From: Streptomyces sp. SAJ15
GTDB lineage: Bacteria; Actinomycetota; Actinomycetes; Streptomycetales; Streptomycetaceae
Reading direction: 5' to 3'
Assembly: GCF_007595705.1 (NCBI RefSeq)
Contig: NZ_NISY01000002.1
Coordinates: forward strand, 186,001 to 250,000
DNA: 64,000 nt
Position 1 is the stretch's first letter; each line of letters starts with the position of its first letter. Below are positions 19,271 through 62,797 of this stretch, piece after piece. The notes beneath the pieces were generated by a model, which was not told the origin of the DNA, did not search any database, and saw only the letters and a list, made by a program, of their open reading frames with translations. Position numbers and translations under genes: made by a program.

Positions 19271-19299
19271 TTGACGGGGTTGGACCATCTCTCTAGCGT
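19271..19299 (+). promoter_or_regulatory. Promoter of the Crp/Fnr-family gene
   Basis: TTGACG (-35, 19271-19276) and TAGCGT (-10, 19294-19299) are 17 bases apart, close to the vegetative HrdB consensus of Streptomyces. They lie about 135 bases before the regulator start. The rest of 19158-19434 shows no gene. Confidence 0.5.
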
Positions 19300-19434
19300 T
19301 CTGTCACTCAATCGGGTCGCAACGCTTTCAGAAGGCACAGCGTCTGTATCTCTACTGGATGTGACCGAAAACGACCCGAAGCGAGGGCTTCTCTCCGTGC
19401 TCAGGACAGCCGGAGGCCCGAGCGGGGAGGGCGA

Positions 19435-20333: not shown

Positions 20334-21632
20334 GTGGGCGACACGGAGACCCAACTCCGGCTCGTGGTGAGCGCCGGTGTGTGCGGGCCGCGCACCGCGG
20401 GCGCCCGGGCCGAGCTGCGCGCGCACGAGACGGTGTGCGACGTCGTGGACGGCGCGTTCGCCCGGATCGGGGTGCGCGGGAGCGGCCTCCTGCTGATGGA
20501 CCGCCCGGGCGGTCTGGTGGCGTCGCCGCCTGCCGGGCTGCCGGCCGCGCTGCTGGCGGGGGAGTGGTTGGAGGAGGTCCACCAGCGGCTGCGCCAGGAC
20601 AACGCGGATCGCGCGGTGCCGCTGCGGCTGCGGATCGCGCTGCACCGGGGGCCGGTGGCGCGGTGCGGCGACCGGCTCGCCGGAAGCGCGGTGGAGCTCG
20701 CCTGTCGGCTGTGCGACGGCGAGGTGGCCGAGCGCACCCTGTCGCACGCGCCGGAGGCGCCGTTGCTGTGTGTGGTCTCTGCGGAGTTCTTCCGCGAGGT
20801 GGTGGTGGAGGGCGGGCGCTTCATCGAGCCCGAGCACTACCGCGAGGCGCGGGGCGCCTGGTACTACGTGCCCCGCCTGGCGGTGCCGCCGCTGCCGGAC
20901 GAGGCAGCGGAGCCGCCGGACGCCTCGGCGTCCGCCGAGCCCGGCGCCGTCGAGGGGGTTCCGCCGTGGGTCGCGGGGGTGCCCACGGCCGGAGGCCCGG
21001 CACCGGGGCGGGGCGGCGGGATGCGACAGGGGGGGTGCCCGCCGCCCGCCTCCGAGTCCGATCGTCCGTCGAGTTCCGCCTCCGACTCCGGCGGGCCGTC
21101 TGGCTCCGAGCCCGACTCCGGCGGGCCGTCTGGCTCCGCCTCCGACTCCGGCGGGTCGCCCGTCTCCGAGTCCGGTCGGCCGTCGAGCTCCGACGCCGAC
21201 TCCGCCTCTGGACAACCGGCCGCGGCGGCAAGCGGGCCACCGTCCGAACGCACCTCCGGACAGCCTGCTTCCGACTGCGGGCAGCGGCCCGGTTCCGCCC
21301 CGGCGCGACCGACCGCCGCGGGCTCCGGCCGACCGCCCGGCTCCGACGCCGGGCAGGCGCCCGGCTCCGACGCTCCGCAGGCGCCCGGTTCCGACGCCGG
21401 GCAAGCGTCCGGTTCCGGGCAGGCGTCCGGTTCCGGTTCCGGGGAGCCCGTGGTGGAGGCCGAGTCGGAGCGGGCCACGTACCGCTTCGAGTACATCGGC
21501 GGCGACAGCCAGATCTTCCACGGCAACACCATCCACGGCGATTTCACCGGCATCCGCAAGGGCGGCCGGGGGGACAAGCGCCGCCGGGGCTTCCGGGGGC
21601 GACGGGGCGGCGAAGGGGACGGCGGGCGATGA
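20334..21632 (+). CDS. Degenerate nucleotide-cyclase-like protein (operon gene 1)
   Basis: A 432-residue protein opening the ten-gene operon. Residues 1-180 resemble a class III cyclase homology domain as found in many Streptomyces signalling proteins: LLLMDRPGGLVASPP, RLRIALHRGPVARCGDRLAG and LCVVSAEFFREVV follow the cyclase order. The metal-binding Asp pair of a working cyclase is not evident, so it is probably a binding or sensor domain. Residues 185-370 are a Ser/Gly/Asp/Pro linker with short repeats (SDSGGPSG, APGSDAGQ). The end carries GDSQIFHGNTIHGDFTG and a basic tail. The next protein has a related motif. GTG 20334 has GGGAGG five bases upstream. It overlaps gene 2 by ATGA. Confidence 0.65.
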   Translation: MGDTETQLRLVVSAGVCGPRTAGARAELRAHETVCDVVDGAFARIGVRGSGLLLMDRPGGLVASPPAGLPAALLAGEWLEEVHQRLRQDNADRAVPLRLRIALHRGPVARCGDRLAGSAVELACRLCDGEVAERTLSHAPEAPLLCVVSAEFFREVVVEGGRFIEPEHYREARGAWYYVPRLAVPPLPDEAAEPPDASASAEPGAVEGVPPWVAGVPTAGGPAPGRGGGMRQGGCPPPASESDRPSSSASDSGGPSGSEPDSGGPSGSASDSGGSPVSESGRPSSSDADSASGQPAAAASGPPSERTSGQPASDCGQRPGSAPARPTAAGSGRPPGSDAGQAPGSDAPQAPGSDAGQASGSGQASGSGSGEPVVEAESERATYRFEYIGGDSQIFHGNTIHGDFTGIRKGGRGDKRRRGFRGRRGGEGDGGR

Positions 21633-24172
21633 GCTCAGTGGACGACGACACCGCCGGGTCGGCCGGGGAGCCGGGCGGTCCGGCCGCGGACGGCGCCCAG
21701 TCCGAGGGCCGGGGCGCCGACGGCGGCAGGGGCGAGGACCGGCAGGCCGACGGCCGGCGGCAGGACGGCGAGGGCCGGGACCGCGACGGCCGGCAGCGCG
21801 AGGCGAAGCCGGACGGCGAGGAGCGGGAACGGGAGCAGCCGCGGCGGCTCGGCGCCCCCAAGGGCAGCCCGCTGGGCGGTGCGGGCGCGGACGGTGGCGC
21901 CCGCACCGCCCGCGAGGCGCGCGCCAACTTCCACGTCGAGGGCGACAACCAGATCTACGAGGGCAACACCTTCTTCCACACCCAGGTGCTGCCCGGCCCC
22001 GAGGAGGTGTTCGTCGACGGACCGGTCCCGCGTGAGCGGCTGGACCACGTGCGGCGTGTCTACTGCCCGGTGCCCGGCTACGAGCGGATGCGACGCCGCC
22101 TCGAGCTCACCCATCTGCTGGCGCTCTGCGGCGAACACGGCACCGGTCGCGGCTCCACCTCCCTCGCGCTGCTCGCCCAGGTGACCGGCGGCGAGGTCTC
22201 GCGGCTGGACCCGTACACCGCACTCGGCAGGGTCGACACGAGCAGGTTCGAAGAGGGGCGCGGCTACCTCCTGGAACTCCCCGACGGCGACACCTACGAC
22301 GGCGGCTACGGGGGCGAGCCGCCCGAGGAGCGCGGTCACCGGGACCGCGACCGGGGGTCGGGCGCCGCGCCCGGGCCCCGCCGGCTCACCGAGCTGCACC
22401 TGGACCGGCTGAGCGCCGCGCTGGCCGAGCGCGGGGCGTACGGCGTCATCCTGGTCGGTGCCGGCGACCTCGCCGATGTGCTGGTGCGCGGTCGCTACGG
22501 CCTGGTGTGCGCCCCGCCGCCCGCCGACGAGGTCCTCAACCGCCATCTGACCTCGCTGCTCGCCGAGGCCCCCGGCCAGACGCTGCTGTTGGCCCGAGCC
22601 AACGCCGCCCGCGCGGATGTGCGGGAGGCGCTCGGCCTGGACGAGCTGCGGCCCGGTGAGGCGGCCCGGCTCGCCGGCCACCTCGCGGCACACGCCACCG
22701 GCGGCCTCTCCGACGCGGAACTGCTGCGGGAGTGCCGGTGGTTCGCCCCACGCCAGGCCCAGGAGTGGTTCGCCGGCGCGGACCGCCCCGGCACCCTGCC
22801 GGGCGCGCTGCCCGCGCTGCGCGGCGCCGCCCTGCGCATCGCGCTGGCCGTCTTCAACGGCTCCGCGGACAGCCTGGCCGCCGAGGCCGGCGAGCTGCTG
22901 AGCTGGGAGCTGGCGGTCACGCTCGACCCGCAGTACGCGCCGGGGCGCTCGCTGTTCACCGCGCACACCGGGGCCAGGCTGGCCGCCGCCCGCGCGGTGC
23001 CCGGCAGGGGCGAGGAGGATCTGGGCGAGGCCACCATCCCGGTCCGTGTGGTCCGCTTCCAGGGGCAGCGGTTGGCCACGGCGGTGCTGTACGAGGCGTG
23101 GGACGGCTACCACAACGTGCGCGGCCCGATGTCCCGCTGGCTGCGCACGCTGTGCGACGACCCGCGCCCCCAGGTGTGGGTGCGCGCCGCCATCGCCGCC
23201 GGCGTGCTGTGCTCCTGGGACTACCTCTACGGCTTCTCCGAGCTGCTGCTGCCGCTCGCCCGCGCGGACAGCCCGGTCCAACGGATGGCCGCCGCCACCG
23301 CCCTCGCCGAAGCCGCACGCGACGAGGCCGTGCGCCCCGCCGTCCGCGGGCTGCTGCGCGACTGGGCCCGCGGCGACGACGAGGAGGCGCGTGAGACGGC
23401 CGCGCTGGCCCACGGCTACGGCCTGGCGGCGGGCTCGGTCTCCGCCTCCCTGGACCAGCTCGGCCGGATCGGCTGCCGGGACGGCGGGGAGTCGGCGGAG
23501 ATCGCCTCCTACAGCGTGGTGCGGCTGCTGGCGGGCCCGGAGCCGGAGGACGTCCTGCAGCGGCTGGCCAGCTGGTACCGCGACCGGCGGCAGGACCGGC
23601 AGAACCTCGCGCTGCTGACGGTGCTGCGCGCGGTCACCACCCGCACCTCGCACCTGTGGGGCCTGCGGGACACCCCGGAGCTGGAGCCGTACGCCTCCTG
23701 GCCGCTGGTCGCCGCGCTGGTCGAGGCCCGCCCGGAGCACACCCGCTGGCTCTCGGACCTGGTGTGGTGCGCGCTGACCACGGCGCGCTCGGGCGCGGCC
23801 GCGCTCGAGGCGATGGCCGGCTGGATGCGCCGCGCGGCCCGCGACGAGCGACAACTGACGTCGCTGTGCGACTTCCTGCCACGGCTGGTCAGCCAGGAGC
23901 GCGATCGGGAGCGCCTGCTGCTGCTCATCGCCCGGCTGGCCGGCGACATCGACGAGCCGCTGAACGCGCGGGCCGCGGAGCGGATGCGACAGGCGCTGCT
24001 GCCGGACGGACCGGAGAGCGGGCCCGACCTGGCCGTGGCGTACCGTCCGGGCAGCGCGCCCCGACACGGCCCGGCGCGCGACTCCGGTCCGCGCGGTCCC
24101 GTGCGCGGCCCCGCGCCCGACCCGGCCGAGACGCCCCACGAGGGGTGGCACGAGAGGGAAGGGCACAGATGA
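21629..24172 (+). CDS. STAND-like helical protein with altered P-loop (operon gene 2)
   Basis: An 847-residue protein. Residues 1-95 are charged and disordered. GDNQIYEGNT near 103 echoes the C-terminus of gene 1. A P-loop-like GEHGTGRGSTSLALL occurs near 168, where the usual Lys of GKS/T is replaced by Arg-Gly; a clear Walker B is not seen. Two blocks resemble an NTPase core followed by a winged-helix-like region (LDELRPGEAARLAGHLAAH, near 340). Residues 420-800 look like all-alpha HEAT-type repeats (QVWVRAAIAAGVLCSW, VQRMAAATALAEAARDEA). The tail is disordered. I infer a STAND-like scaffold that may bind nucleotide weakly. The start overlaps the stop of gene 1, and the stop overlaps gene 3. 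The family is not certain. Confidence 0.6.
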   Translation: MSSVDDDTAGSAGEPGGPAADGAQSEGRGADGGRGEDRQADGRRQDGEGRDRDGRQREAKPDGEEREREQPRRLGAPKGSPLGGAGADGGARTAREARANFHVEGDNQIYEGNTFFHTQVLPGPEEVFVDGPVPRERLDHVRRVYCPVPGYERMRRRLELTHLLALCGEHGTGRGSTSLALLAQVTGGEVSRLDPYTALGRVDTSRFEEGRGYLLELPDGDTYDGGYGGEPPEERGHRDRDRGSGAAPGPRRLTELHLDRLSAALAERGAYGVILVGAGDLADVLVRGRYGLVCAPPPADEVLNRHLTSLLAEAPGQTLLLARANAARADVREALGLDELRPGEAARLAGHLAAHATGGLSDAELLRECRWFAPRQAQEWFAGADRPGTLPGALPALRGAALRIALAVFNGSADSLAAEAGELLSWELAVTLDPQYAPGRSLFTAHTGARLAAARAVPGRGEEDLGEATIPVRVVRFQGQRLATAVLYEAWDGYHNVRGPMSRWLRTLCDDPRPQVWVRAAIAAGVLCSWDYLYGFSELLLPLARADSPVQRMAAATALAEAARDEAVRPAVRGLLRDWARGDDEEARETAALAHGYGLAAGSVSASLDQLGRIGCRDGGESAEIASYSVVRLLAGPEPEDVLQRLASWYRDRRQDRQNLALLTVLRAVTTRTSHLWGLRDTPELEPYASWPLVAALVEARPEHTRWLSDLVWCALTTARSGAAALEAMAGWMRRAARDERQLTSLCDFLPRLVSQERDRERLLLLIARLAGDIDEPLNARAAERMRQALLPDGPESGPDLAVAYRPGSAPRHGPARDSGPRGPVRGPAPDPAETPHEGWHEREGHR

Positions 24173-25926
24173 ACGACCAGAAGCCGGCCGAGCCGTGGAC
24201 ATCGGCCCGGCCGTGGGAGCGGCCGGAGCGCCTGGACCGCCCCGGAGGGCCGTCACCGGCGGGCCCCGGCGCCTCCGGCGAGCGGGCTCCGGTCCTCGGA
24301 CCGCTGGTGCGCGAGTACGTCCCCGTGGGCCGCTACCGACGGCCCAGCGGCCAGGTCGCGGCGGTGCTCATGTACGAGAACGGCGGCTACAGCGTGGTGT
24401 GGCCCGACCGTCGCGAGGACGTCGACAAGCCGCTCATCAAAGGGCCGTACACGGTCATCGAGGTGCACACCGGCTGGCACCTCACCCAGTTCCGCACCGA
24501 GCTGCCGGCCGCCGGCGACGCCGAGTTCTTCCGCGCCGAGGTCGAGGTGCGATGGCGGGTGGTGGACGCGCGCGCCGCCGCCGTCGCCGGGGTGTGGAAC
24601 CTGGCCGAGCACCTCTCCCCGGTGCTGCTGCGCGCCCTACGCGGCATCACCCGGCGCTACCGCATCAGCGAGGCCGAACGGGCCGACGTGGCGGTGGAGT
24701 CGGAGCTGCTGCAGCGCGGCGCGCTCGTGCTCGGCGACGATCTCGGCCTGGAGACCCAGGTGTTCGTACGGATCGACCTCAGCAGCCGCGGCATCAGCGC
24801 CCAGCGCGAACGCACCGACGTCGAGCACGTCCGCGAGGTGGAGCGCGCCCAGCACGAGCTGGAGCGCGAGCGCGAGGCTCGCGAGCAGGAGCTCAACCGG
24901 ATGCGGGCCGCCGAGCTCCAGGAGGTGCTCCGCGGCGGCGACGACGACCGGATCGCCTGGTTCATGGCCCGTGACAAGGCCCGGGCGTGGGACATCCACC
25001 AGGCGATCCTCCGGGAGCGGCGGGAGGAGCGCGAGCTCTCCATCGAGACCGTGTTCCGCTTCGTCGACGGCGGGCTCATCGAGCGCCAGGACCTCAACGA
25101 CCAGACCCTCGCCGCCATCGACTTCCTGCGCTCCACCACCCGCGGCACCATGGGCCGCGCCGCCGAGACCGTCTTCGGTCTGCCGCGACACCCCGCGGCC
25201 TCCGGCGAGGACCGGGCCCGGGCCCGACGCCAGCTGGACTGGAGCCACGCCGAGCGGCCGCCGGAGCCCGACGCCCCGCGGGACTCGGCGCCCGGCCGGG
25301 ACGAGGCGCGGGACGTCGGGCACGGCGCGGAGCGCCCGTACGACGCCGGGCGAGGACCCTCCGCGGACCGATCAGACCGATCAGACCGATCAGACCGATC
25401 AGACCGACGAGATCGACCAGGTCGACCAGAGCGCCGTGGCCCGTCGGATCGGGGGGACGGGGCGTACGGGTCGGACCGGTCGAGCCGGGAGTGGGAGCGT
25501 GAGGGGGATTACGGCCACGGACCGGGCCGGGACGGGGAGTACGCCGGCCACCGCGCGGCCGGGGACCACGGGGACCACGGGGACGACCGGTATCTCCGGG
25601 CCGAGCGAGGCGGCGGGGACCGGCCCGACGGGTGGGGCGGCGGGGACCGGGTCTACGAGCCCACCCGCGTCCAGCGGGCGGCGGAGCGCGACGACTACCG
25701 CCGCCGCCCGCCCCGCTCCACCCGCGACGACGCCCCGGAGGACCGGGTGCGCGACCGCTGGGACGACGACCGCCGGGACGACGACCGCCGGGACGACGAC
25801 CGCCGGGGCGGGGGTCGTGGCGAGGAGCGCCGCTGGGACGGGGACCGTTGGGACGAGTCTCCGCCTCCCGAGCGCGACCGGTCGCCGCGCCGCTGGAGCG
25901 ACAAGCTCGACTGGGGCGACGAATGA
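24169..25926 (+). CDS. SPFH/band-7-like protein with coiled coil and repetitive tail (operon gene 3)
   Basis: A 585-residue protein. Residues about 46-205 look like an SPFH (stomatin/band-7) fold: REYVPVGRYRRPSGQVAAV, then FFRAEVEVRWRVVDARAAAV. A coiled coil follows near 212-250 (EREREAREQELNRM) and a helical segment to about 340. SPFH proteins form large membrane-associated rings; no membrane helix is seen here, so recruitment through a partner is likely. Residues 340-585 are a disordered Asp/Arg/Gly tail, including an RSD run from a 9-bp repeat and a DDRRD run from a 15-bp repeat. It overlaps genes 2 and 4 by ATGA. Confidence 0.6.
   Translation: MNDQKPAEPWTSARPWERPERLDRPGGPSPAGPGASGERAPVLGPLVREYVPVGRYRRPSGQVAAVLMYENGGYSVVWPDRREDVDKPLIKGPYTVIEVHTGWHLTQFRTELPAAGDAEFFRAEVEVRWRVVDARAAAVAGVWNLAEHLSPVLLRALRGITRRYRISEAERADVAVESELLQRGALVLGDDLGLETQVFVRIDLSSRGISAQRERTDVEHVREVERAQHELEREREAREQELNRMRAAELQEVLRGGDDDRIAWFMARDKARAWDIHQAILRERREERELSIETVFRFVDGGLIERQDLNDQTLAAIDFLRSTTRGTMGRAAETVFGLPRHPAASGEDRARARRQLDWSHAERPPEPDAPRDSAPGRDEARDVGHGAERPYDAGRGPSADRSDRSDRSDRSDRRDRPGRPERRGPSDRGDGAYGSDRSSREWEREGDYGHGPGRDGEYAGHRAAGDHGDHGDDRYLRAERGGGDRPDGWGGGDRVYEPTRVQRAAERDDYRRRPPRSTRDDAPEDRVRDRWDDDRRDDDRRDDDRRGGGRGEERRWDGDRWDESPPPERDRSPRRWSDKLDWGDE
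25366..25401 (+). repeat. Four 9-bp tandem repeats (GACCGATCA)
   Basis: Exact units at 25366, 25375, 25384 and 25393, followed by a degenerate copy. They encode the RSDRSD run in the tail of the SPFH-like protein. A second short array of 15-bp units lies at about 25765-25810 in the same gene. Confidence 0.85.
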
Positions 25927-26246
25927 CCGGGTCCGGGTCGCCGCCGCGGCGGGGCCCGTTCGACGCCGTGCCGCCGCGCACCACCAGCGGCGGCGGCGCC
26001 GAGCCGCCGCCCGAGCCCATGCGCCTCGCCGACCCCGGCTCCGAGCCTGGCACGAGCCCCGGCGCCGACTCGACCTCCGGCACGCCTCCCACCGTCACGC
26101 CGCCCTTCGTCACGCCGCCCCTTTCGCTCCGCGAACCCCCGCGCGGCCCGCACCAGCGCACGCGTCCCCGGACCCTCGGCAGACCCGCCCGCCGCGGGCG
26201 TCGGTCCGGCCGGGGCATCCGGGACCACATCGCAAGGAGAACCGCA

Positions 26247-28787
26247 GTGATATGCCCTGACATCCGGCCCTCGGGGCGGCGTTCGCGCCCGCGTCGACGG
26301 CCGGCCCGGCGCGCGCTGGCCGCGACCGCGGCGGTGTGCGCGCTGGCCGTAGGCCTGGCGCCGGCGCCGCCCGCCGCCGCCCGCGAAACCGCGTCCGACG
26401 GCGCGGTGAAGCCCATCGACTTCGCCGTCCTCGTGGACGTCTCCGACAGCCTCAGCGACGCGGACCTGGCCCGGGAGACGGACGCGGCCGCGCTGATCGC
26501 CCAGGCGGAGATCTCCGACCGCTCACGCGCCACCGTCATCGGCTTCGGCAGCGCGGAGAAGCCCGGTCAGCAGCCCGTGCGGGAGGTGTGCTCGCCGACC
26601 GTCACCGACGAGGCGGGGCGGCAGCGGCTGAGCCGGTGCGCGCAGCAGTTGAAGGACCGCGCGGGGAACCGGGTCGGGCCGGGGACGGACTTCCCCGCCG
26701 CGCTCACCCAGGCCGTCGACCGGCTCGGGGAGCACGGCTCCGACACCACCCCCAAGGTCGTCTTCCTGCTGACCGACGGCAAGCTGGACGTGGCGGACAG
26801 CCCCGCGTACGGCACCGATCCCGCGAGCCGCCGGGCCAACGCCGCCAAGAAGCTGCGCGAGACGCTCGACCGGGCCCGCCGCGAGCAGGTGCAGATCTGG
26901 CCGCTGGGCTTCGGCGACGGCATCGACCGAGACGCGCTGCGCGCCATGGCCGCCGGCGGCTATCGCAACGACTGCCCCGACCGGCCCGGAAGCACCCCGC
27001 GGATGCGGGTCGCCGACAGCGCCACCGAGGTGGACCGGGCGCTGCACGTCACCTTCGCGGCCGCCCGCTGCGGTGACGTCGAGGAGGGCACCAGCGCCAG
27101 GCCGCCGGGCGAGCTGAAGGTCACCATCCCGCCGATCGCCACCGACGGCTCGATCACCGTCACCAAGCACGACCCGCGCGTCACGGTCACCTACTACGAC
27201 CCGGAGGACAACCGGGTGCCGGCGCACGGCACCGCCCACGGCTCCCGCTTCGACGTCAGCGGCCAGGACGGGCCGGTCGAGGCGCTGCGGGTCCGGGACC
27301 CCCTGCCCGGCACCTGGCGGGTGAAGCTGTCCGCCCCCGAGGGCCACCGCGACCATCCCGCGACGGTACGGGCCATCTGGCAGGGCGTGCTCCACTCGGC
27401 GATCTCGCTGGAGCCCGTCACGCCGCGCCCCGGCGAACGCAGCGTGGTGCGGGTGCGGATGCAGACCCGGCGCGGTGTGGCCATCACCGACCCCGAGCAG
27501 TTGGCCGGGGTGAAGGTCACCGCCCGGCTGACCGGCGACGGCTTCGCGGAACCGGTGGACATGACGCTGCGGGACGACGGCGAGGGCCCGGACGAGCGAG
27601 CGGACGACGCCCTCTACGCCGCCGAGTTCACCGTGCCCGAGACGGCCTCGGGCGTGCTGCGGATCATCGGGGAGATGGCGGCCCCCGGCGTCACCAGCGA
27701 CCACCGCCCCTACGACACGCACACCGCCCCGCCCGACGGCCCGCGGGTCGTGGCCGACGTCGCCCTCGACAAGCAGTCGGTGTATCCGGGCGGCGAGGTC
27801 GGCGGCCGGATGACCGTGCACAACGACGACACCCGGCCGCACACCCTGCGGCTCGCCCTGAAGGACCTGCCGGAGAAGTCATCCCTGCGGATCGCCCCGA
27901 CCACGGTCACCGTGGAGGCGGGCGCGCAGCGGCGGGTTCCGTTCACCGTCGCCTTCGGGGCGGACACGGCGCTCGGCGACATCGGAGGGCAGATCAGCGT
28001 CGTCGACACCACCGACAACGGCCAAGAGGTCGGCCATGCGTTCCTGACCGTCGCGGTGGAGCCCGAACCGAGCCGCTGGGAGCGGTGGTGGGACCGCTGG
28101 TGGTGGGCCGCGGTCAGCGGCGGCGCGCTGGCGCTGGCCGCCGGGGCGCTGGTCGCCGCCCGCGTCCACTCCGCGCGGTCGCGGAAGTCACTCCAGGGGC
28201 TGGTCATCGAGGTGCGCCGGGAGGGCTCCGGCGCCGCCCCCGCCCAACTGCCCGTCCGCGGCGCCGGCGTACGGACCTTCTACTTCACCGTCGACGGCGG
28301 CTCCGGCTCCGGCACCCCCACGCTGCGCCGGCGCGACTCCGGCGGCGGTCAGACGTACCGGCTGTGGCGCGCCGGCGACGGCAGCCTGCGGCTCCGCGCG
28401 CCCCGAGGCCGTGAACAACTGCTCCCGCGCGGGGGCCCGCTGGCGCTCGACGACGGTCTGGAGCTGTGCGTACGCGACGAGCGCGGCGCGACCCGCGGCA
28501 CCGCGCGGGGTGGCGGAGGCGGCGGAGGCGGCGGCCGCACGGCCGGCGGCCGTGGCTCCAGGCTCGACGCCCGGCCCGGGGGGCGCCGCCCCTTCGGCGG
28601 CCGCTCGCGCGGCCGCTCCGGCTCCGGCACCGGCGATGGCGCCGGAGGCGGGACCGGGGGCCCGGACGGCTCCGCGACGAACGGCAGGTCGGACGGCGGT
28701 CGCGTCCGCGGCGGCCGCCCCCGGGGCGGCACCGGCGGCGCCGCCTCACCCAGCGGCGGAACGGGCGGCTATGACGCGGCGTTCTGA
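26247..28787 (+). CDS. Secreted, membrane-anchored von Willebrand factor A protein (operon gene 4)
   Basis: An 846-residue protein. A basic, RR-containing signal peptide occupies residues 1-46. The vWA domain spans about 55-250 with an intact metal-ion site: DVSDS (DxSxS), GTDF (Thr) and LLTDGK (Asp). Two Ig-like beta regions follow, then a membrane helix near 620-642 (AAVSGGALALAAGALVAARV), a small cytoplasmic beta domain and a Gly/Arg-rich tail. It should display the vWA domain outside the cell and link it to cytoplasmic partners. GTG 26247 is preferred because AAGGAG lies seven bases upstream and the signal peptide begins at once. An ATG at 25923, overlapping the stop of gene 3 and in frame, would add 108 Pro-rich residues; which start is used is unresolved. 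Confidence 0.8.
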   Translation: MICPDIRPSGRRSRPRRRPARRALAATAAVCALAVGLAPAPPAAARETASDGAVKPIDFAVLVDVSDSLSDADLARETDAAALIAQAEISDRSRATVIGFGSAEKPGQQPVREVCSPTVTDEAGRQRLSRCAQQLKDRAGNRVGPGTDFPAALTQAVDRLGEHGSDTTPKVVFLLTDGKLDVADSPAYGTDPASRRANAAKKLRETLDRARREQVQIWPLGFGDGIDRDALRAMAAGGYRNDCPDRPGSTPRMRVADSATEVDRALHVTFAAARCGDVEEGTSARPPGELKVTIPPIATDGSITVTKHDPRVTVTYYDPEDNRVPAHGTAHGSRFDVSGQDGPVEALRVRDPLPGTWRVKLSAPEGHRDHPATVRAIWQGVLHSAISLEPVTPRPGERSVVRVRMQTRRGVAITDPEQLAGVKVTARLTGDGFAEPVDMTLRDDGEGPDERADDALYAAEFTVPETASGVLRIIGEMAAPGVTSDHRPYDTHTAPPDGPRVVADVALDKQSVYPGGEVGGRMTVHNDDTRPHTLRLALKDLPEKSSLRIAPTTVTVEAGAQRRVPFTVAFGADTALGDIGGQISVVDTTDNGQEVGHAFLTVAVEPEPSRWERWWDRWWWAAVSGGALALAAGALVAARVHSARSRKSLQGLVIEVRREGSGAAPAQLPVRGAGVRTFYFTVDGGSGSGTPTLRRRDSGGGQTYRLWRAGDGSLRLRAPRGREQLLPRGGPLALDDGLELCVRDERGATRGTARGGGGGGGGGRTAGGRGSRLDARPGGRRPFGGRSRGRSGSGTGDGAGGGTGGPDGSATNGRSDGGRVRGGRPRGGTGGAASPSGGTGGYDAAF

Positions 28788-33527: not shown

Positions 33528-36409
33528 ACACGTTTGCGCCCACCGCTCCGGCGGCCGCCTCCGGGGCGCCCGTGGTGACGCTGGACCTCCGTTCCGCGGG
33601 GGCGCGGTTCAGCGACCCCGCGGAACTCCACCGCGCCGTGCGCGAGTCGCTCGGCGGCACGCCCGTGACGACGGCCGGCCGCTTCCTGCTGCTGGACACG
33701 GCCGAGGGGCTGGCCGGCCACCAGCACGTCTACGAGCAGGTGCTCTCGTACGGCAACGGGCACGCGCTGTGCCTGGCGATCGGCGCCCCCCACGCCGGAT
33801 CCACCGAGGACGACCTACGGGCGGCCGCGTCGCCTACCCAGTGGGCCCTGGACCGGCCCTCGACGCTGCGGCCGCCGGCGGTCGGGGTGCTGTGGGTCCT
33901 CGACCCGTACGCGGGGACGGCCGACCCGGAGGAGGACCCCAGGACGGTGGAGGAGGTGCTGCATCCGCTGGTCGAACTTCTCGCGGGCGCCTCCGTCTTC
34001 GACGCCGTGCTGCACGCGATCGGGGAGCTGCCGGAGGGGGTGGCCGTGCCCGCGCTGCGCGTGCTGGAACACGACCTGGCGGCGGCGGACCGCGAGCGCG
34101 CCTGGCGGCAGGCGCTCGCCGACCTGGTCGGCGAGGAGGTGCCCGGCCCGACCGCCTCGTTCGCCCCGGCCATGGACGAACTGCCGGCCGCGCTGGCGCC
34201 GTTGGTCGGCCCTTCGGTGCCCAAGAGCGTCGAGGAGGCGGTGTGGCGCCGGGCGGGCGGCGAGGCCGCGATCCGGTTGCGCGCGGCGGAGTACGCGCTG
34301 GACGAGGCGGAGCGGGAGTACCAGCGACTGCGCGGCGCGGCCGGGTTGTTCGGCCGAACCGGCCGCGACAGCGACCTCGCCGGCTGCCTGGAACAGGTGG
34401 CGGCCGACCTCGTCGCCTACCGCGACACCGTGGAGGACGCGCTGCGCGACGGCGACCGAGTGGGGTTGCCGCCCGAGCAGCGCCGCCGGCTGCACGAGCA
34501 CGGCATCGACCTGCCCCGCGTCCCGGAGACCTCGCGTGAACGGGTCGGCCCGGCGCTGCGCGGCTACGCCCAGGAGCTGCTGGCCAAGCGGCTTCCGCTG
34601 CGCTCGGCGGCGGCCCGGCTCGGCGCGCTGTCGGATCTGGCGACGCCCACCAGCAGCGCCGCCCGGCTGCCCGGGCTGGCCGACGCCTGCCCGCCGGGAC
34701 TGCCGGACCGCCTCATCGGCGCGCACCCGTTCACGGTCCGCGGTGCGCGCCGCGGCGAACTGGCCGCCACCTGCGCGCTGACGGCCGCGGCCGGACTGTG
34801 GCCGGGCCCGGGCTGGGCGCTGGGGCCGCTGACCGCGGTGGCCGCCGCCGGGCTGACCGACCGGGCCTTCGCGCGGCGGCCACGTGCCGACAGCGGCGGC
34901 ACCTCCGGGGCCCTCGCGCAGCTCGCCGCGGGCCTGCTGGGCGCGGCGGTCGGCGCCGTCGCCGGCAAGCTGCTCGGGGCCCCGGCGTGGCTGGGCCTCG
35001 GCGGCCTGCTGCTCGCCCTGCTCATACTGCCGGTGCTGGCCGTGCGCCGCTGGACGGCCGCGGTCGACGCCTGGTGGGAGACGGCCGGTGTCCCCGAGGC
35101 CCGGACCGCGCTGCACACCGTGGACGACATCCTCACCGACGCCGTCGTGCACGACTGGCTGCTCGCCGACGCCCGGCTGTACTGCGCCGACGGCGCCCGC
35201 GCCATCGCCACGATGATCCGCCGCGCGGCGGCCGCGGCGGCGCCCGCGCGGGGCCCCGGCACCGTCCCCCACGGTGCCGGCGACCATGACGGCCGGGAGA
35301 AGGGCGGCGAGTACGGCCCGTACGACCAGCCGTACGCCCACCCGGAGGGCTGGGACCGCGGCGACGGCTGGACGGACGAATGGCACGGCGGCTGGGACGA
35401 GTGGAGCGGCGGCCCCGACCCCTGGGGTGAGGCGGTGGGCGAGCCGTACCCCGAGGCCGGTACGGCCGGGTACGCCGAGACCCCCACGGCGGGAGACGAG
35501 AGCGGGAACCCAGTCGACCGCGAGCCAAGCGGGCACGAGGGCCGCCGGTACGACAACGGGTACCAGGCCGACGGATTTCATGACGACGGACTTCGTGACG
35601 ACGGACTTGGCGGCGGCGTCCACGACGGCGGCGTCCACGGCGGCGGTTTCCACGACGAGGGGGCGCGCGACGACGGGCCGCCGGACAACGGCTTCCACGA
35701 CGGCGGCTTCCGCGACAACGGGCCGCCGGACAACGGGCCGCGTGACAGCGGGGAGTACGGCCGGTACGACACCTCGTACGCGGCGGCGGGGCAGACCGCC
35801 GACGGCGTCGGGGAGCCGTATCCGCGCGAGCGCCGCGCCGCGCCCTGGCTCGAGCGGGAGGCCGGCGACGGCGGCCCCGAACTGACCGAGACGCTGGCGG
35901 CCGACATCGCCGAGGGCATCGCCCAGTTGCTGGCCCCGTACTGGGGAACCATTGAGCGCGACCCGGGCACCGCCGCAGGCTTTCCGCTCGACCAGCGGGT
36001 GCGCGAGCTGCTGGCCGCCGAGAGCGCCCGGCTGGCGCGCGACGGGGTGGCGGCCCCTCCGCCGCACGCCCGCCCCGAGCGGGAGCGCCCCGAACCGGCG
36101 GTGCTGCTCGGTATCGCGCCCGATCGGGTGGTCAGGACGCTGGAGACGGAGGAGCACGGCCTCGCACCGCTGGCCCTGTGCGCCGCGGAGCACCGTCGGT
36201 TGCTCTCCCGCGACCGCCACGCCAGCCGCCGGGTGCGCTTCGCCCCGGAGGCCGTGCGCCGCTCCAGCGCGGTCGTGGCCGACGACATCGTCTGGACCCC
36301 CGCCGGCCGCTACGCGGGCGTCCTTCGGCTGTTGCCGCCGCGCACCGGCTCCATACGGACGGTCAGATTCCGCGACGGCGGGCACGGTTCAGGGAACGGG
36401 TACGGATGA
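33524..36409 (+). CDS. Membrane protein of unknown family with repetitive tail (operon gene 7)
   Basis: A 961-residue protein. Residues 1-400 look soluble, mixed alpha/beta then helical (ALDEAEREYQRLRGAAGLFG). Two hydrophobic blocks follow, about 411-450 and 463-507 (LLGAAVGAVAGKLLGAP, GGLLLALLILPVLAV), each able to form one or two membrane helices. A helical segment to ~570 precedes a Gly/Asp/Tyr-rich disordered region with DDGLRDDG and DNGPPDNG repeats. A conserved-looking C-terminal domain lies at about 785-961. No catalytic motif is recognised. By position it is a candidate membrane anchor for the tubulin-like protein. GTG 33524 overlaps the previous stop, and the next ATG overlaps its own stop. 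Confidence 0.6.
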   Translation: MNTFAPTAPAAASGAPVVTLDLRSAGARFSDPAELHRAVRESLGGTPVTTAGRFLLLDTAEGLAGHQHVYEQVLSYGNGHALCLAIGAPHAGSTEDDLRAAASPTQWALDRPSTLRPPAVGVLWVLDPYAGTADPEEDPRTVEEVLHPLVELLAGASVFDAVLHAIGELPEGVAVPALRVLEHDLAAADRERAWRQALADLVGEEVPGPTASFAPAMDELPAALAPLVGPSVPKSVEEAVWRRAGGEAAIRLRAAEYALDEAEREYQRLRGAAGLFGRTGRDSDLAGCLEQVAADLVAYRDTVEDALRDGDRVGLPPEQRRRLHEHGIDLPRVPETSRERVGPALRGYAQELLAKRLPLRSAAARLGALSDLATPTSSAARLPGLADACPPGLPDRLIGAHPFTVRGARRGELAATCALTAAAGLWPGPGWALGPLTAVAAAGLTDRAFARRPRADSGGTSGALAQLAAGLLGAAVGAVAGKLLGAPAWLGLGGLLLALLILPVLAVRRWTAAVDAWWETAGVPEARTALHTVDDILTDAVVHDWLLADARLYCADGARAIATMIRRAAAAAAPARGPGTVPHGAGDHDGREKGGEYGPYDQPYAHPEGWDRGDGWTDEWHGGWDEWSGGPDPWGEAVGEPYPEAGTAGYAETPTAGDESGNPVDREPSGHEGRRYDNGYQADGFHDDGLRDDGLGGGVHDGGVHGGGFHDEGARDDGPPDNGFHDGGFRDNGPPDNGPRDSGEYGRYDTSYAAAGQTADGVGEPYPRERRAAPWLEREAGDGGPELTETLAADIAEGIAQLLAPYWGTIERDPGTAAGFPLDQRVRELLAAESARLARDGVAAPPPHARPERERPEPAVLLGIAPDRVVRTLETEEHGLAPLALCAAEHRRLLSRDRHASRRVRFAPEAVRRSSAVVADDIVWTPAGRYAGVLRLLPPRTGSIRTVRFRDGGHGSGNGYG

Positions 36410-38304
36410 GGGAGCGGTACGTGATGGACAACGGGGCCCGTTGGGGAGCGTCCGACGCCCCTGCCGGACACGACACTCCTTGCCCTCGCCCGTCGGCCGG
36501 CACGCCCGGCGACGCCCCGCCGGGCGGTGGCCGGCCCCAGGCGCGCGAGCCCGACGCGCGCCGGGCCCAGGCGACGACCGAGCCGCTCCGGCTCGCCGCT
36601 GGCGCTTCGCGCGGTGGTGAGCCGCCGGTCGGGGCAGCGGCCCCGGCGGGCACGGGCACGAGCCCCGGGCGGCCGCCGAGGGGGCCGGGGGCCGCCGCCG
36701 CGACGGTCCGGCCGGACGCGACCTCGGCCGCGCCGCGCGACGGCGGCCCGCCACGGAGCGGGGCCCCGAGACGGCCGGCCGCCCCGCCGCTCGGCCTGCC
36801 TGCGGCGGTCCCGTGCGGAGTCGGTGTGTGGTGCGGGTCGGGTCAGCTCCCCGTGGCGACCGGGGCCGCGGTGCGCGTGACGACGCGGCGCGGCGAGCCG
36901 GCCGGGGTCGCCGTCGGTGCCCCTGGTGATTCCGGGCTGTGGCCGTCGGGTCGCGGTGCGCCGGGCGGGGCGGCCGCGAGAGCGGTCGCCTTTCGGGCGC
37001 GGCGTCGGTCGGGGTCGGGCTCCGTGTCGGCGGGTGCGGTCTGGGCCGGGCGGGTCGCTCTGGGCGGGGGCGCCGCGGGCGTACCGCCGGGTGGCGGCCC
37101 GCCGGGGAGTGGGGCCGTGGAGCGTACGGAGGCCCGCGCGCGGCGGGTGTCAGGAAAGGCCGGCGAGTCAGTGGAACAGGCGGGTGTGAGTGTGGGGGCG
37201 TCGGCGGACGAGAGTGTCTCCCGAGACGGTTCCTCGGGCGGTGGTGACGGCGTGGCGCGCCCGGGAGACGGGCGGGAACCGGAGGAGTTGGTGTTCTGCA
37301 CCGACGAGGGGACGGCGGTCCGGATGGCCGCCTGGCCGCGAGGCGAGGAGCCCGCGCCGGGACGGGAGCCGCTGCGCGGCCGGCGGCTGACGCTCGGTAC
37401 CGGGTGGGACGTGGTGCAGTACCGGCTGTCGGCCTCCGCACGCACCGACCACCGGGCGCGGGACCGGCTGGAGGCGGAGATCGCGGTCGGCCTCGCGGTG
37501 CGGCGCGCCTATGGCGACGCCCCGTACCGGCGGCTGTTCGCCCGGCTGGAGGGCTACCACCTGGACGTGGCCGAGCCGTTCGTCTTCTATCGCCACCACG
37601 GCGCGCGCCGTGGCACCCCGCTGGCCACGCTCTGCGGCCGGCTTCCGGTCCGCGCGCACCAGCAGATCGCCCGCGAACTGGTGCTCGCGGTGCGGCTGCT
37701 GGCCGCCCTCGGCGTGGTCCACCGCGGTCTGACCCCGCATGCCGTGCTGTGGGACGGCCACCATGTGCGGCTGCCCGAGCCGTACGCGGCGACGCGCACC
37801 GGACGCCCGCGCGAGGGGCTGCCCCAGACGGCGCCCTGGGTCTGCCCGGAGCAGCGGGCGGGGCGCGGCGAGGCGGAGCCGCGCGACGACGTGTGGAGCG
37901 TGGCGCAGGTCATGTACCACCTGTTGACCGGGGCGTCGGGGGACCCGGACGGCCCGCCGCGCGATCTGGCCCGGCTGCCCGCGCTGGAGGTGCTGGCCGA
38001 CGCCTTCGCGCCGCGCGCGGTCGACCGGCCGCACCCCGAGGACCTGCTGCGGTCGTTGGGCCAGCGGGACCCGCTGCGGGACCGTCCGCTGCCGCCCGAT
38101 CCGCTGGACGCCGGCCGGCAGATGTTCGACGCCGAACTCGCCCGCAAGCGGGCGGAGCTGGGAATCCACGGCGCGGGGAGCGGCATCGGCACCGGCGTCG
38201 AGGACCTGTCGGCGCCGCCGCCGCGCGGCCCGCGCCGCTGGTTCGGCGGCGCCTCGCGCCCGGGGCGCGAGGCGCGTCCGGGCCGGACGGGGGGCGAGCG
38301 ATGA
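36406..38304 (+). CDS. Pseudokinase with disordered N-terminus (operon gene 8)
   Basis: A 632-residue protein. Residues 1-300 are Gly/Ala/Pro/Arg-rich and disordered. Residues about 328-555 follow the layout of a Ser/Thr protein kinase: LGTGWDVVQYRLSA, a central helix LVLAVRLLAALGVVHRGLTP near 427 and PWVCPEQRAGRGEAEPRDDV followed by WSVAQVMYHLLTG. The catalytic HRDLKPxN reads HRGLTPHA, replacing the Asp, Lys and Asn. No DFG is present (RLPEP at that place), and no convincing beta3 Lys is seen. It should be catalytically dead, acting as an adaptor or nucleotide sensor. It overlaps genes 7 and 9 by ATGA. Confidence 0.75.
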   Translation: MRERYVMDNGARWGASDAPAGHDTPCPRPSAGTPGDAPPGGGRPQAREPDARRAQATTEPLRLAAGASRGGEPPVGAAAPAGTGTSPGRPPRGPGAAAATVRPDATSAAPRDGGPPRSGAPRRPAAPPLGLPAAVPCGVGVWCGSGQLPVATGAAVRVTTRRGEPAGVAVGAPGDSGLWPSGRGAPGGAAARAVAFRARRRSGSGSVSAGAVWAGRVALGGGAAGVPPGGGPPGSGAVERTEARARRVSGKAGESVEQAGVSVGASADESVSRDGSSGGGDGVARPGDGREPEELVFCTDEGTAVRMAAWPRGEEPAPGREPLRGRRLTLGTGWDVVQYRLSASARTDHRARDRLEAEIAVGLAVRRAYGDAPYRRLFARLEGYHLDVAEPFVFYRHHGARRGTPLATLCGRLPVRAHQQIARELVLAVRLLAALGVVHRGLTPHAVLWDGHHVRLPEPYAATRTGRPREGLPQTAPWVCPEQRAGRGEAEPRDDVWSVAQVMYHLLTGASGDPDGPPRDLARLPALEVLADAFAPRAVDRPHPEDLLRSLGQRDPLRDRPLPPDPLDAGRQMFDAELARKRAELGIHGAGSGIGTGVEDLSAPPPRGPRRWFGGASRPGREARPGRTGGER

Positions 38305-39386
38305 GCACCCCGACGCCGGCCATCGTGTGCCCGTACTGCCTGGACCCGATCGCCTTCGACCCGGAACAGCTCTACGCCCGCAACGAGTTCGAGCAGTACA
38401 CCCGGGTCGACCTGTCCGCCGAGTGGCACCCGGTGCGCCGCCAGGACGCGCTGCGCGCCACCTTCCAGCGGTGCACCGGCTCGCCCGACATGGACGAGCA
38501 CTATCTGCCCACGCCCTATCTGACCCACGGCGACCCGCTGACCATCGCCATGGTCGGCGGCTCGGCGGCGGGCAAGACCCATCTGCTCGCGTCGATGATC
38601 GGCGAGGTGGAGCGCGGCGGCCTGGAGCCGTACGGGCTCTCCTGCACCCCGCTGCACGCCGACAGCCACCGCGCCTTCCTCAAGGACCGGGTCCGTCCGC
38701 TGCGTGAGGGATCCGTGCTGGCGCACACCGAGGACGTCGACTTCGCCGAGTTCGCCGACGGGCTGCTGATCAGCGGCGGCGGGGTGACCCGGCCGGTGAT
38801 GTTCTTCGACCTGTCGGGGGAGGACCTGGAGCGCACCGACCGGGTCACCCGGTTCCTGGCCGCCGTCCACGCCCTGGTCTTCGTCGTCGACCCGCTGCGC
38901 GCGCTGCCGCTGCGGTACCTCGATCCGGTGCGCTCGCGCACCGACATGCGCCAGGACGACCTGGGCGACCAGGCGTTCGCCGCCGTGCTCGACCGGATGC
39001 CGCGGCGCGGCTCGTATATCGACGCCGCCGCCACGGTCGTCATCGGCAAGAGCGACCTGATCCGCTTCGAGGAGCCGGTGGCGCGCTGGCTCGGCGCCCC
39101 GGAGCTCCCGGCCGCCCTCACCGCCGCCGCGCTGCGCGCCGAGAGTCGCGACGCCTACGCCTTCCTGCGCCACCACGGCGGTCCGGGCTGGCTGCGGCCG
39201 TTCCACGACAGCGCGCGCTGCACCCTGCACTTCGCCTCCGCCACCGGCGGCCAGGACGCGGCGGGCGGCTTCCCCCAGGGGGTGCGGCCCCGGCGCGTGC
39301 TGACGCCGCTGCTGTCGCTCTTCGCGATGTGCGGGCTGCTGCGCTCCACGGTGTCCTGGCGGGAACGCGCGGAGGTGGGGCTGTGA
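38301..39386 (+). CDS. P-loop GTPase-like protein with zinc-ribbon start (operon gene 9)
   Basis: A 361-residue protein. It opens with CPYC near residue 11, and a further Cys near 57 suggests a small zinc ribbon. The P-loop GGSAAGKTH lies near 86, a switch-II-like FFDLSGED near 169 (DxxG), the strand ALVFVVDPL near 192, and VVIGKSDLI near 247, corresponding to NKxD with the first position changed. This resembles the double-GTPase type associated with bacterial conflict operons, though that assignment is from memory. It probably binds GTP and switches the partner encoded next. It overlaps gene 8 by ATGA and gene 10 by GTGA. Confidence 0.7.
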   Translation: MSTPTPAIVCPYCLDPIAFDPEQLYARNEFEQYTRVDLSAEWHPVRRQDALRATFQRCTGSPDMDEHYLPTPYLTHGDPLTIAMVGGSAAGKTHLLASMIGEVERGGLEPYGLSCTPLHADSHRAFLKDRVRPLREGSVLAHTEDVDFAEFADGLLISGGGVTRPVMFFDLSGEDLERTDRVTRFLAAVHALVFVVDPLRALPLRYLDPVRSRTDMRQDDLGDQAFAAVLDRMPRRGSYIDAAATVVIGKSDLIRFEEPVARWLGAPELPAALTAAALRAESRDAYAFLRHHGGPGWLRPFHDSARCTLHFASATGGQDAAGGFPQGVRPRRVLTPLLSLFAMCGLLRSTVSWRERAEVGL

Positions 39387-42058
39387 CCACACCGACCTCG
39401 GCATCGACGGCGGGGGACGACGCCGTGGTGCACCAGATCGTCTTCCGCTGGGACGCCCGCGGGCGCGCCGGAGCCGCCGGCATCGGCCCGGTCGCCTGGT
39501 CCGCCGGCGGCGGGACGGCGCTGGAGCCCGCGTTGGAGTCGATCCACCGCTACCTGGCCCCGGTGCTGCGGGTCCCCGGCGCGTCCGGCGCCTCCGCGCG
39601 GGAGAGCATCGTCCGGCTGGAGCCGCCCCGTGAGGTGGACCCCGGCCTGCCCGCGCTGCTGATGCGTCGGGTGCCCGCGCCGGACCGCGGTGGCCGGCCC
39701 AGCACCTACTGCCACGTCCTGCACGGCGACCGGAGGCTGCTCTCCGCGCCCACCTGCCTGCTGCTGCACCGCTGGAACTGGACCGGCAGCGACATCCCGC
39801 TGCGGGAGGTGACGGGCGCCGTGCTGGACCCGCTGCCGGCGCGCCGGCTGTCGGCGGCCCGGGCCGGGATGGAACGCGAACTCGGCAGGGATGTGGCGCG
39901 GTTCGCCGACGCGCTCACCGCGCTGGTCGCCGCCGCGCTGCGCGACCCCGACCACCGGATGTCCGTGCTCGACCACAGCGAGGGCCGGGCGCCGGTGCCA
40001 CTGCTGTGGGGCATGGGCAGCATGTTGGGCAAGGTGCTGCCGGGGCCCTGGACCTTCGCCACCCATGACACCCGGGACGCCGGCCAGCTCCGCTTCGTCT
40101 TCGTGCCCCAGTGGCCGAAGTCGGCCACGCAGGACCCACGGCTGACCCGGATCGACCCGCGCCAGGGGGCGCGCGACGACCGGGCGTACGCGACGGCGCG
40201 CAACCTGGTCGAGCATTTTCTGGCCGCTCTCCACGATCCCGCCGAAGTGAGGCGTATCAGCGACGAACTGGGGCAGGCGGTACCGCGTTGCGAGCGGCTG
40301 CCACTGCCCGCACGGCTGATGCGACTCGACGAACGGCTGGAGCAGCTACGGCGCGAGGCCGCCCTCCGCGCCGCCCGGCACCCCGATCCGGCGGACGGCG
40401 ACGGCCCCGGAGCGGAGCGCCGGGCGGCGCACGGCGAGGACGGTCGGGCCCGGGACGGGGTCCGCCCGGCGCGCCGGGTGCGGCTCGACCGCGCGGAGCG
40501 GGGGTCCGACCGGTCCGCACGGGCCGACCACGTCGCGCCGCGGAAGCCGTCTGGGCGGAGCGAGCGCACCGCGCGCACGGTGCGACCCGACGGGTCCGTG
40601 CGGCCTGAGGGGACCGGGCGACCCGATGGGTCCCTGCGACCTGACGGTTCCGTGCGACCTGACGGTTCCGTGCGGCCTGTCGGGTCGGTGCGACCCGACG
40701 GCGGGCGGGCCGGGCCGGAAGGGCCCGGGTCGCCGCACCGGGAGCCCGAGCGACGCGAGCCCGGCGGGCCAGGTGAACGACGCGAACCATCCGAACCATC
40801 CGAACCGTGCGAACGACCCGAGCAGAAGGAGTGGACCATGGCGCATGACACGCACCCACCCGGCTACCCGGCCCCGGCACCGTTCGCCACGACCGGCTTC
40901 GACGATCCGCCGCTGCGCACCGGCACCCGACCGCACCCCCACCCCACGACGGACGACCTGATCGAGGCGCTGCGTCGACACCAGACCGACGCCGTCGTCG
41001 CCCGGCTGCCGGAGATCGACGATGGGGCGCTGCTCAGCGTGCTGGCGGCCGGGGTGCCCGCGACGGCGGCCACCCGCGTCGTCACCGAGCTCGTCCGCCG
41101 TGCCCCGCACCGCGATCCGGAGCTGGCCGACGCGGTGTGCGAACAGGTGCTGCGCGCCGACCTCTACCTGGACTGCCACCCGCCGGGCGACGCGGAGGCG
41201 CGCACCGACCCCGGCGGCGGCGTCCGGGTGCGCAACGCGGTCGAGCTGTACGCCGGCCTGGTGCGCCCGCACACGGGGCGGGAGCGGACCCAGGGGCTGA
41301 TCACCGAGCTGCTGCCCCGACTGTGGAACGACCCCGGAGGCGCGGGCCGCGAGGTGGTGTCCCGCATCGTCGGGCGCCACGAGCCGGCGGGCTTCGGCGA
41401 GAGCGGCTGGGCGGCGCTGTTCCACCAGGCGCTGGGGGCGGCGCCCGGTCCGGAGACGACGCCGCGGCCCGCCCCGGCCGATCCGCCCCGACGGTTCTAC
41501 CGCCGGTTCCTGCCGAACCGCGCGGACCGCGGCGACGTGCGGCGGAGCCGGGACGACCGGCAGGGGAGCCGCCTCGGCCGGCAGCGCGGTGACGGCGACC
41601 GACCACGCGGCGGCGACCGACCACGCGGCGACGAGTGTGCGATCCGGGGCCACGACGGCCCGGGCGGGTATCACGACGGTTCCCTCGGGAATCAGGACGG
41701 CCCGGGCGGGTACGACGGCCCGGTCGGGAACCACGACGGTTCCCTCGGGAACCACCACGGCCCGGTCGGGTACCACGGGAACCACGACGGTCCGCCCCGG
41801 AGCCGGGACGCCGACTCCCGACGCGAGGACGAGCGCGCCCACGACCGGTCGCCGACCCCGACCCCGTCCCGGCACCACCCGTACCCCGGGGCACAGCGCG
41901 GGCATCAGCCGCCGCCCCCGCCACCCCCCGGCTGGTCCGCCGGGACCGTGCACGGCGGCGCGGCCACGGGCCCGCGACAGGGCCAGCTCTTCGTCTCCAC
42001 CCTGCTCGGTGTCATCGTCGTGGCGTTGGTGCTCATCATCGTCTTCGCGCTGGCCTGA
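39383..42058 (+). CDS. GTPase partner protein, tail-anchored (operon gene 10)
   Basis: An 891-residue protein ending the operon. Residues 1-330 form an alpha/beta domain ([20 protein letters not shown], later [19 protein letters not shown]) resembling GTPase-associated N-terminal domains, a tentative assignment. A charged linker with RPDGSV repeats follows. Residues 510-690 are helical ([20 protein letters not shown]). A second disordered region is rich in Gly/His/Asp. The last 23 residues are one membrane helix ([17 protein letters not shown]) with nothing after it, so it should be tail-anchored with its bulk in the cytoplasm. An in-frame ATG at 40838 with GAAGGAG seven bases upstream could start a second product of 406 residues. 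Confidence 0.6.
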
Positions 42059-48641: not shown

Positions 48642-49835
<1,194 letters not shown>

Positions 49836-61442: not shown

Positions 61443-61555
61443 GTATGTCTCCAAGATGACGTGCGTACGGCGCGATGTGCGGAGTGGGGGGCATCGCGGG
61501 CAGGATCCTGGACAGGATCTTCACAGGTCACGGCGGCGGGTGCCGCCGCGCACGA

Positions 61556-61587
61556 GGGCCGCACCCCTCGGGAGAGCGGTGCGGCCC
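61556..61587 (-). terminator. Terminator of FG-GAP paralogue 2
   Basis: A 10-bp stem, GGGCCGCACC at 61556-61565 with its complement at 61578-61587, lies 16 bases beyond the 3' end of the gene ending at 61603. Its arms resemble those of the acnA terminator. Confidence 0.7.
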
Positions 61588-61602
61588 GGGCGGCTCGGGG
61601 CC

Positions 61603-62779: not shown

Positions 62780-62797
62780 CCGCCGGCCTGCCGGACC

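Follow-up and report, generated by a model that had tools for sequence, protein, structure and literature searches.

Positions 186,001 to 250,000 of contig NZ_NISY01000002.1 of Streptomyces sp. SAJ15 (64,000 nucleotides; hereafter, the window) contain a block of ten co-directional genes, a Crp-family regulator gene (crp) followed by a nine-gene operon (g1-g9), which together span about 22 kb. On balance, we read this block as a chromosomal conflict cassette, i.e. an immunity or regulated-response system, of the tubulin/DO-GTPase kind, extended by a STAND sensor module. The reading is anchored in a conserved block situated at a swappable site, in an anatomy that brings together membrane, GTPase and tubulin-type proteins, and in a motif match between the tail of g1 and the head of g2. 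The features of the block are as follows.

19271-19300, plus strand: promoter-like element TTGACG-17-TAGCGT of Streptomyces type, upstream of crp, spotted by eye
19435-20142, plus strand: crp, Crp/Fnr regulator with a cyclic-nucleotide (cNMP)-binding domain; accompanies the cassette and is absent at tubulin-negative loci
20334-21632, plus strand: g1, degenerate class III nucleotide-cyclase-like domain and a disordered tail
21629-24172, plus strand: g2, disordered N-terminus, nSTAND3/AAA+-like domain and HEAT-type solenoid
24169-25926, plus strand: g3, conserved protein, SPFH/Band-7-like with a coiled coil by eye (label unconfirmed)
25923-28787, plus strand: g4, signal peptide, vWA domain (E 2e-7), Ig/FN-like beta region and one transmembrane (TM) helix
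29265-33527, plus strand: g5, Tubulin_2/FtsZl1-type protein (PF13809, E 4.4e-73) with a long C-terminal part and a disordered tail
33524-36409, plus strand: g6, conserved protein with two TM-like segments, a core member in other families as well
36406-38304, plus strand: g7, pseudokinase, kinase fold without catalytic residues
38301-39386, plus strand: g8, zinc ribbon with a DO-GTPase2-like GTPase; most Streptomyces have it fused to g7
39383-42058, plus strand: g9, GAP1-position protein with a longin/DENN-like N-terminal domain, a helical domain and a C-terminal TM helix

The nine operon genes were called from coding composition, start and stop geometry and homology. Between 20334 and 42058 of the plus strand the genes are closely packed and show a strong coding signal, and the order crp-g1-...-g9, together with the strand, is kept in about 30 Streptomyces species or loci, far above chance. 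The packed same-strand series given in a preliminary description of this DNA is thereby borne out, and its idea of a single system survived as well, homologues of the genes being co-located in other genomes. Ten genes had been counted there, of which nine were found: the open reading frame (ORF) 28771-29268, plus strand, taken as a further gene (g4b), was rejected, as it had no homologue among the 51 loci covered by the homologue check (44 named loci came from the tubulin-seeded search), showed a flat, non-coding GC content by codon position (0.81/0.85/0.79) and sits inside a 27/36-bp tandem-repeat array. Since the gap between the vWA and tubulin genes (g4-g5) is mostly 15-111 bp in relatives, we regard it as an expanded, repeat-rich spacer. 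All eight 4-bp overlaps listed in the same description are present in the window sequence, and conservation supports those of g1/g2 (29/32 relatives), g2/g3 (29/30), g5/g6 (38/40), g6/g7 (32/36) and g8/g9 (26/36); the overlap at the upstream start of the vWA gene (3/31) and that of g4b with the tubulin gene (0/38) find no such support. The block is also longer upstream than described, as crp belongs to it. This gene, the boundaries of the cassette, the match to the literature and the g1/g2 motif pair go beyond the preliminary description.

A generic promoter scan upstream of crp called no promoter, and neither a conserved Crp palindrome upstream of crp or g1, nor a match in Rfam, nor one in a plasmid search with the tubulin gene was found. 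A tRNA called by ARAGORN at 21361-21451 falls within g1 and was discarded as an artefact.

The location of the cassette provides the strongest argument for a conflict role. Its neighbours lie outside the cassette.

14898-16523, plus strand: hen1, RNA repair methyltransferase (PF12623), conserved left flank
16520-19084, plus strand: pnkp, RNA 5'-kinase/3'-phosphatase/ligase (PF16542), bounding the insertion site on the left
42160-43398, plus strand: adi, arginine deiminase-type gene, bounding the insertion site on the right

An ornithine carbamoyltransferase gene follows adi. In tubulin-negative Streptomyces, hen1, pnkp and adi are contiguous and crp is missing, with the tightest pnkp-adi gaps amounting to 68, 88, 106 and about 160 bp; because the flanks adjoin there, the block is best described as one presence/absence cassette of about 22 kb. 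The interval between pnkp and the arginine deiminase gene is a variable Streptomyces site, at which whole conflict systems are exchanged and which holds other cargo in genomes that lack the tubulin cassette. At this site, locus L151 (6313-18015, genome G009) carries VMAP-C, VMAP-M0 and EAD2 components with a MoxR-like AAA protein, an NB-ARC-TPR protein and a caspase-EAD2 protein, and L147 a SARP-ThsA-macro protein with CAP12-TIR, L156 being assigned likewise from its matching gene order (G020 and G016). A Band_7 gene was the cargo in L144, and a phage-integrase gene was located between hen1 and pnkp in L157 (G006). The preliminary description had left the choice among defence, programmed death and development; with VMAP, CAP12-TIR and ThsA-macro cargo exchanged at the same site, conflict or defence is favoured over development. 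The presence of VMAP cargo also agrees with the mutual exclusion of tubulin and VMAP systems in actinobacteria, as reported by Kaur et al. 2020 (PMC7159879).

Two further observations concern such loci. The CAP12-TIR protein of L147 (4396-5133) has an Asn/Gly-rich head, GGNSSDYGSRNDFGRNNSFVTGNNNTTNSGTQN, by its appearance a possible further amyloid-signalling segment. In the Pseudonocardiaceae-like genome G284 (L095, 80-4743), pnkp and hen1 stand beside the tubulin operon too, in the opposite orientation; the link between RNA repair and the tubulin system may thus go beyond a shared site.

The family is patchy: the tubulin operon was present in 21/121 Streptomyces and 16/247 class members. Outside the order, g1-g3 are absent from Pseudonocardiaceae-like genomes (the family name is deduced from loci in Amycolatopsis and Saccharothrix that share this layout), where g4-g5-g6-g7-g8 are retained along with a TM protein resembling g9; the core therefore consists of the vWA, tubulin, g6, pseudokinase, GTPase and g9 genes, to which g1-g3 were added in this order. 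The g1-g2 module, which occurs only in this order, adds a STAND sensor module to the tubulin/DO-GTPase core. In about 30 Streptomyces, and likewise in G028 from a second family of the order, g1-g3 remain attached, even where the right flank differs and arginine deiminase is missing (L036, L042). In most Streptomyces relatives g7 and g8 form a single fused ORF, which suggests that pseudokinase and GTPase act together; in the window they are separate overlapping genes. Contig C1 of G325 carries two Tubulin_2 genes at separate chromosome positions, with no g1 or g2 homologue upstream of the second.

Among the core proteins, g4 has an intact MIDAS motif (DVSDS) in its vWA domain, which should be extracellular in view of the signal peptide and single TM helix; as the conserved part begins near residue 130, its true start is probably downstream of 25923. 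No FNIII model matched g4 despite its Ig/FN-like beta region, and the profile search gave no HRDC match in any operon protein. Both GTP loops of g5 are intact (GGTGA and AGGTGAG). In g7, HRD is replaced by HRG and there is no DFG, the catalytic Asp and DFG being missing across 13 aligned copies; the window copy bears a low-complexity N-terminal extension of about 290 residues, not seen in relatives. The window copy of g8 scored 23.7 bits against PF19993, below the 27-bit cut-off that the operon GTPases of G028 and G029 exceed; its zinc ribbon (C10/C13/C58) and the Walker B E174 of FDLSGED are invariant in five aligned sequences, and by this N-terminal ribbon and Walker B glutamate it is predicted to be a DO-GTPase. 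The structural model of g9 matched TagF with Z 9.5, a longin domain of archaeal origin with Z 8.7 and DENND10, a DENN protein, with Z 7.3. Longin and DENN folds are classic partners of small GTPases, so that g9 may reasonably be seen as a membrane-bound GTPase partner.

Within the added module, PDB profile searches with g1 matched Ma1120 cyclase structures (E about 1e-6). Both metal-binding Asp residues are lost in the window copy and kept in relatives, and the transition-state Asn is replaced by Asp in the family; lacking the metal Asp pair and this Asn, the window copy is predicted not to be an active class III cyclase. The nSTAND3 model (PF20720) was matched by 16/17 g2 homologues (best E 4.3e-7), the window copy itself giving no match, and the Walker A motif reads GxGR, with Arg for Lys (GR vs GK[ST]), in 29/29 aligned copies. 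The predicted model of g2 consists of a disordered head, an AAA+/STAND-type domain and a HEAT-type solenoid. For g3, neither Pfam, nor PDB profiles, nor an hhalign comparison with a Band_7 protein returned anything for the SPFH label, and a single weak match to FloA (E 0.26) was seen in one homologue. Thus, the tubulin-like GTP-binding protein, the vWA protein, the dead kinase, the STAND-like protein with changed P-loop and the non-catalytic cyclase-like domain of the preliminary description were all recovered, and its small GTPase could be specified as DO-GTPase2-like with a zinc ribbon. Its gene count with the tenth gene and its SPFH-like label found no support; its system idea was retained.

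The g1 tail and the g2 head share a short motif.

21480-21557, plus strand: g1 C-terminal motif YRFEYIGGDSQIFHGNTIHGDFTGIR
21920-21997, plus strand: g2 N-terminal motif RANFHVEGDNQIYEGNTFFHTQVLPG, counterpart of that in g1

Similar stretches occur in the disordered tail of g1, YIGGDSQIFHGNTIHG, and in the disordered head of g2, HVEGDNQIYEGNTFFH. When the 109,493 stop-free 16-mers from all six frames of the window were ranked by their match to the g1 stretch, that of g2 came first after the g1 stretch itself (42 vs 26 for the next), and a g1-motif profile run over 265,149 operon-protein positions had g2 at all of its first 26 ranks. In the whole 8.1-Mb genome, the profile of each motif returned the other as its second match (E 2.2e-4 and 4.6e-4) and no further credible protein; a third genomic occurrence of the tail motif, on C62 with E 0.095, was rejected, as it lies antisense to other genes. 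The motifs covary beyond what tubulin phylogeny accounts for (partial Mantel r 0.63, p 0.0005). With the motifs anchored manually in divergent loci, a genome's own pair fits better than a swapped one within each clade (p 0.0004 and 0.009). In the second Streptomyces clade (clade B) both have changed jointly to a '..HIG' form, e.g. RYTVHGDMSQHRDNTYWQPVHIG in g1 and LFESGRDLHSFDRSYIGSAHIG in g2, and we take its VQMG/VHIG to recall the RHIM tetrad. The conserved flanks of the motif differ, being IHGGFTGIRK in g1 and FEGNxFxxxF in g2. It appears that both motifs evolve together, in a manner resembling amyloid "handshake" signalling by the immune receptors of animals and fungi.

The arrangement corresponds by analogy to the geometry that has been published for amyloid signalling pairs of bacteria, which have a motif at the effector C-terminus and the NLR N-terminus, encoded by adjacent overlapping genes of filamentous actinobacteria (PMC7889193). 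Judged by sequence, g1 and g2 would qualify as such a pair (BASS; Dyrka et al. 2020, reviewed in PMC7889193), having the same short motif at a putative effector C-terminus and at the N-terminus of an adjacent NLR-type protein. Compared with the BASS pairs described there, the effector is cyclase-like and not Bell, CHAT or TIR, its NLR-type partner carries a degenerate Walker A, and the pair is embedded in a tubulin/GTPase operon. In its Q-[IV]-x-x-G-N spacing the motif is identical to VQVGDGN, a BASS3 peptide that has been tested (PMC8086366); the resemblance is one of spacing only. A further shared-looking pair, TEVYNKIGRIDRVAVLG and SESYTEIGHAVIEEAYFGG, was noticed in L181 (G028, the other family of the order) and is too short for a test alone.

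The core kind has precedent, a point which the preliminary description had left undecided: both the tubulin/DO-GTPase conflict kind and the FtsZl1 operon have already been predicted in two papers (PMC7159879, PMC2875224). Kaur et al. 2020 (PMC7159879) include an actinobacterial tubulin theme among predicted GAP1-N2-type DO-GTPase conflict systems, and the cassette resembles it, as there outlined, in its single tubulin-domain protein with a C-terminal part, its zinc-ribbon DO-GTPase, its membrane vWA protein with a beta region and its downstream TM protein at the GAP1 position; the predicted tubulin-domain and membrane vWA proteins would place it with that system. Relative to these systems, the cassette adds crp, the cyclase-like g1, the nSTAND3-HEAT g2 and g3, joins a pseudokinase to the GTPase where the published kinase theme has separate, active kinases, has a g9 unmatched by the GAP1-N2 model, and yielded no HRDC-FNIII protein in the profile search; no description of a matched tail-motif pair was found in the available text. 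The VMAP-MoxR-vWA ternary systems treated therein occupy the same pnkp-adi site in the Streptomyces of L151 and have no homologous core genes. Makarova & Koonin 2010 (PMC2875224) described operons in which FtsZl1 is accompanied by vWA, kinase and GTPase genes, and predicted for them a role in membrane remodelling. The cassette likewise has an FtsZl1/Tubulin_2 gene with vWA (MIDAS intact), protein kinase and diverged GTPase genes, and with the vWA, kinase-fold and GTPase genes adjacent to the putative FtsZl1 gene it would count as one of these operons, which as reported there have no STAND/cyclase module and no insertion-site evidence. The membrane-tethered GTPase/tubulin switch suggested in the preliminary description is consistent with both the anatomy and the published DO-GTPase systems. 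Neither a STAND/cyclase module with a co-evolving tail-head motif nor the swap site was found described in the available literature.

Beyond the motif pair and the conserved complex, we infer the following steps. The nSTAND-HEAT protein g2 would sense an invader signal and expose its N-terminal motif in place of ordinary ATP switching; given the degenerate P-loop, what frees the head motif may be the binding of a ligand or partner and not ATP cycling. The exposed motif would template the matching g1 tail motif in a RHIM/BASS-like beta assembly, so that the cyclase-like domains of g1 would cluster at the membrane complex. Set by g9, its GAP1-like longin partner, the pseudokinase-DO-GTPase would act as the gate through which the tubulin-like polymer assembles; this polymer would be coupled to the extracellular vWA protein and might remodel the membrane or arrest the compartment. 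The Crp protein would control expression and may read a cyclic nucleotide. An immune supercomplex running in this way from degenerate STAND receptor through RHIM-like amyloid templating and cyclase-like adaptor to a DO-GTPase-gated tubulin-family polymer and extracellular vWA protein is a tentative proposal, to which we give clearly less credence than to the conflict cassette as such.

Several points weigh against these readings. PADLOC called no system at the locus and returned weak kinase resemblances on g7 only. The Pfam GAP1-N2 model had no match in g9, and by hhalign the g9 profile is collinear with GAP1-N2 proteins from one end to the other, over 282 columns, with a score of 30.0 (P 0.003; controls 12.8-25), which is only suggestive. 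The g2 model has a low predicted TM score (pTM 0.41), the output of the putative g1 effector is hard to predict because its domain is degenerate in the window copy, and the permutation tests on the motifs use related, non-independent genomes. Amyloid formation and the anti-phage function are themselves what we infer.

The same genes could serve a housekeeping or developmental machine, in which no invader is involved and the polymer, together with the vWA protein, gives membranes their shape in growing hyphae or at sporulation. Such remodelling is the role predicted in PMC2875224 for the FtsZl1 operons, which likewise contain vWA, kinase and GTPase genes, and the membrane-facing g4, g6 and g9 and the Crp regulator fit it as well; the patchy distribution given above, the clean absence of the entire block from its site in other genomes, the occupation of this site by other conflict systems and the immune-type architecture of a STAND protein with a paired motif all speak against it, and we consider it unlikely. 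It would also be possible to split the block into two independent neighbouring systems, STAND/cyclase (perhaps with g3) and tubulin/DO-GTPase, having only the transcript in common, given that outside the order only g4-g9-type genes co-occur and g1-g3 are an addition. The attachment of g1-g3 in about 30 Streptomyces and the G028 family, also next to a different right flank, renders this improbable.

The motif pair admits a different reading, too: it could be an ordinary docking peptide of short length or a site for a shared ligand, with both proteins binding e.g. one beta-sheet domain of g3 or g4, and the motifs would then look alike on account of their common binding partner. The motif is short and consists mostly of GD/GN-type polar residues, and its conserved flanks differ between g1 and g2. 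Against a dock stand the likeness of clade-B VQMG/VHIG to the RHIM tetrad, the BASS3-like spacing (PMC8086366), and the position at an effector C-terminus and NLR N-terminus in overlapping adjacent genes, which is that of bacterial amyloid pairs (PMC7889193). A dock is thus a possibility of some substance, short of a probable one.

If the conflict-cassette reading with its amyloid step is true, amyloid signalling and a cytoskeletal effector would be combined within one operon. Three separate lines are joined here, namely tubulin/DO-GTPase conflict systems, bacterial amyloid signalling pairs and a Streptomyces conflict-system hotspot. The first of them are predicted systems, for which no experimental function was found in the literature; empty sites and tail motifs open direct and cheap ways to probe the role of bacterial Tubulin_2/FtsZl1 proteins, and the proposal that tubulin and VMAP systems are functionally equivalent is supported by their exchange at a common site.

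Elsewhere in the window, a GmrSD-type type IV restriction gene (1348-3948) with an extra C-terminal alkyltransferase-like DNA-binding domain is located 15 kb upstream of the operon. An EF-Tu gene, probably a second, tuf3-like copy, lies near the cassette on the minus strand (48642-49835). A tandem of three similar genes, whose N-terminal signal-like sequences are related, occupies 60483-63703 on the minus strand, and the one that was scanned (60483-61442) has FG-GAP and tachylectin-like repeats.

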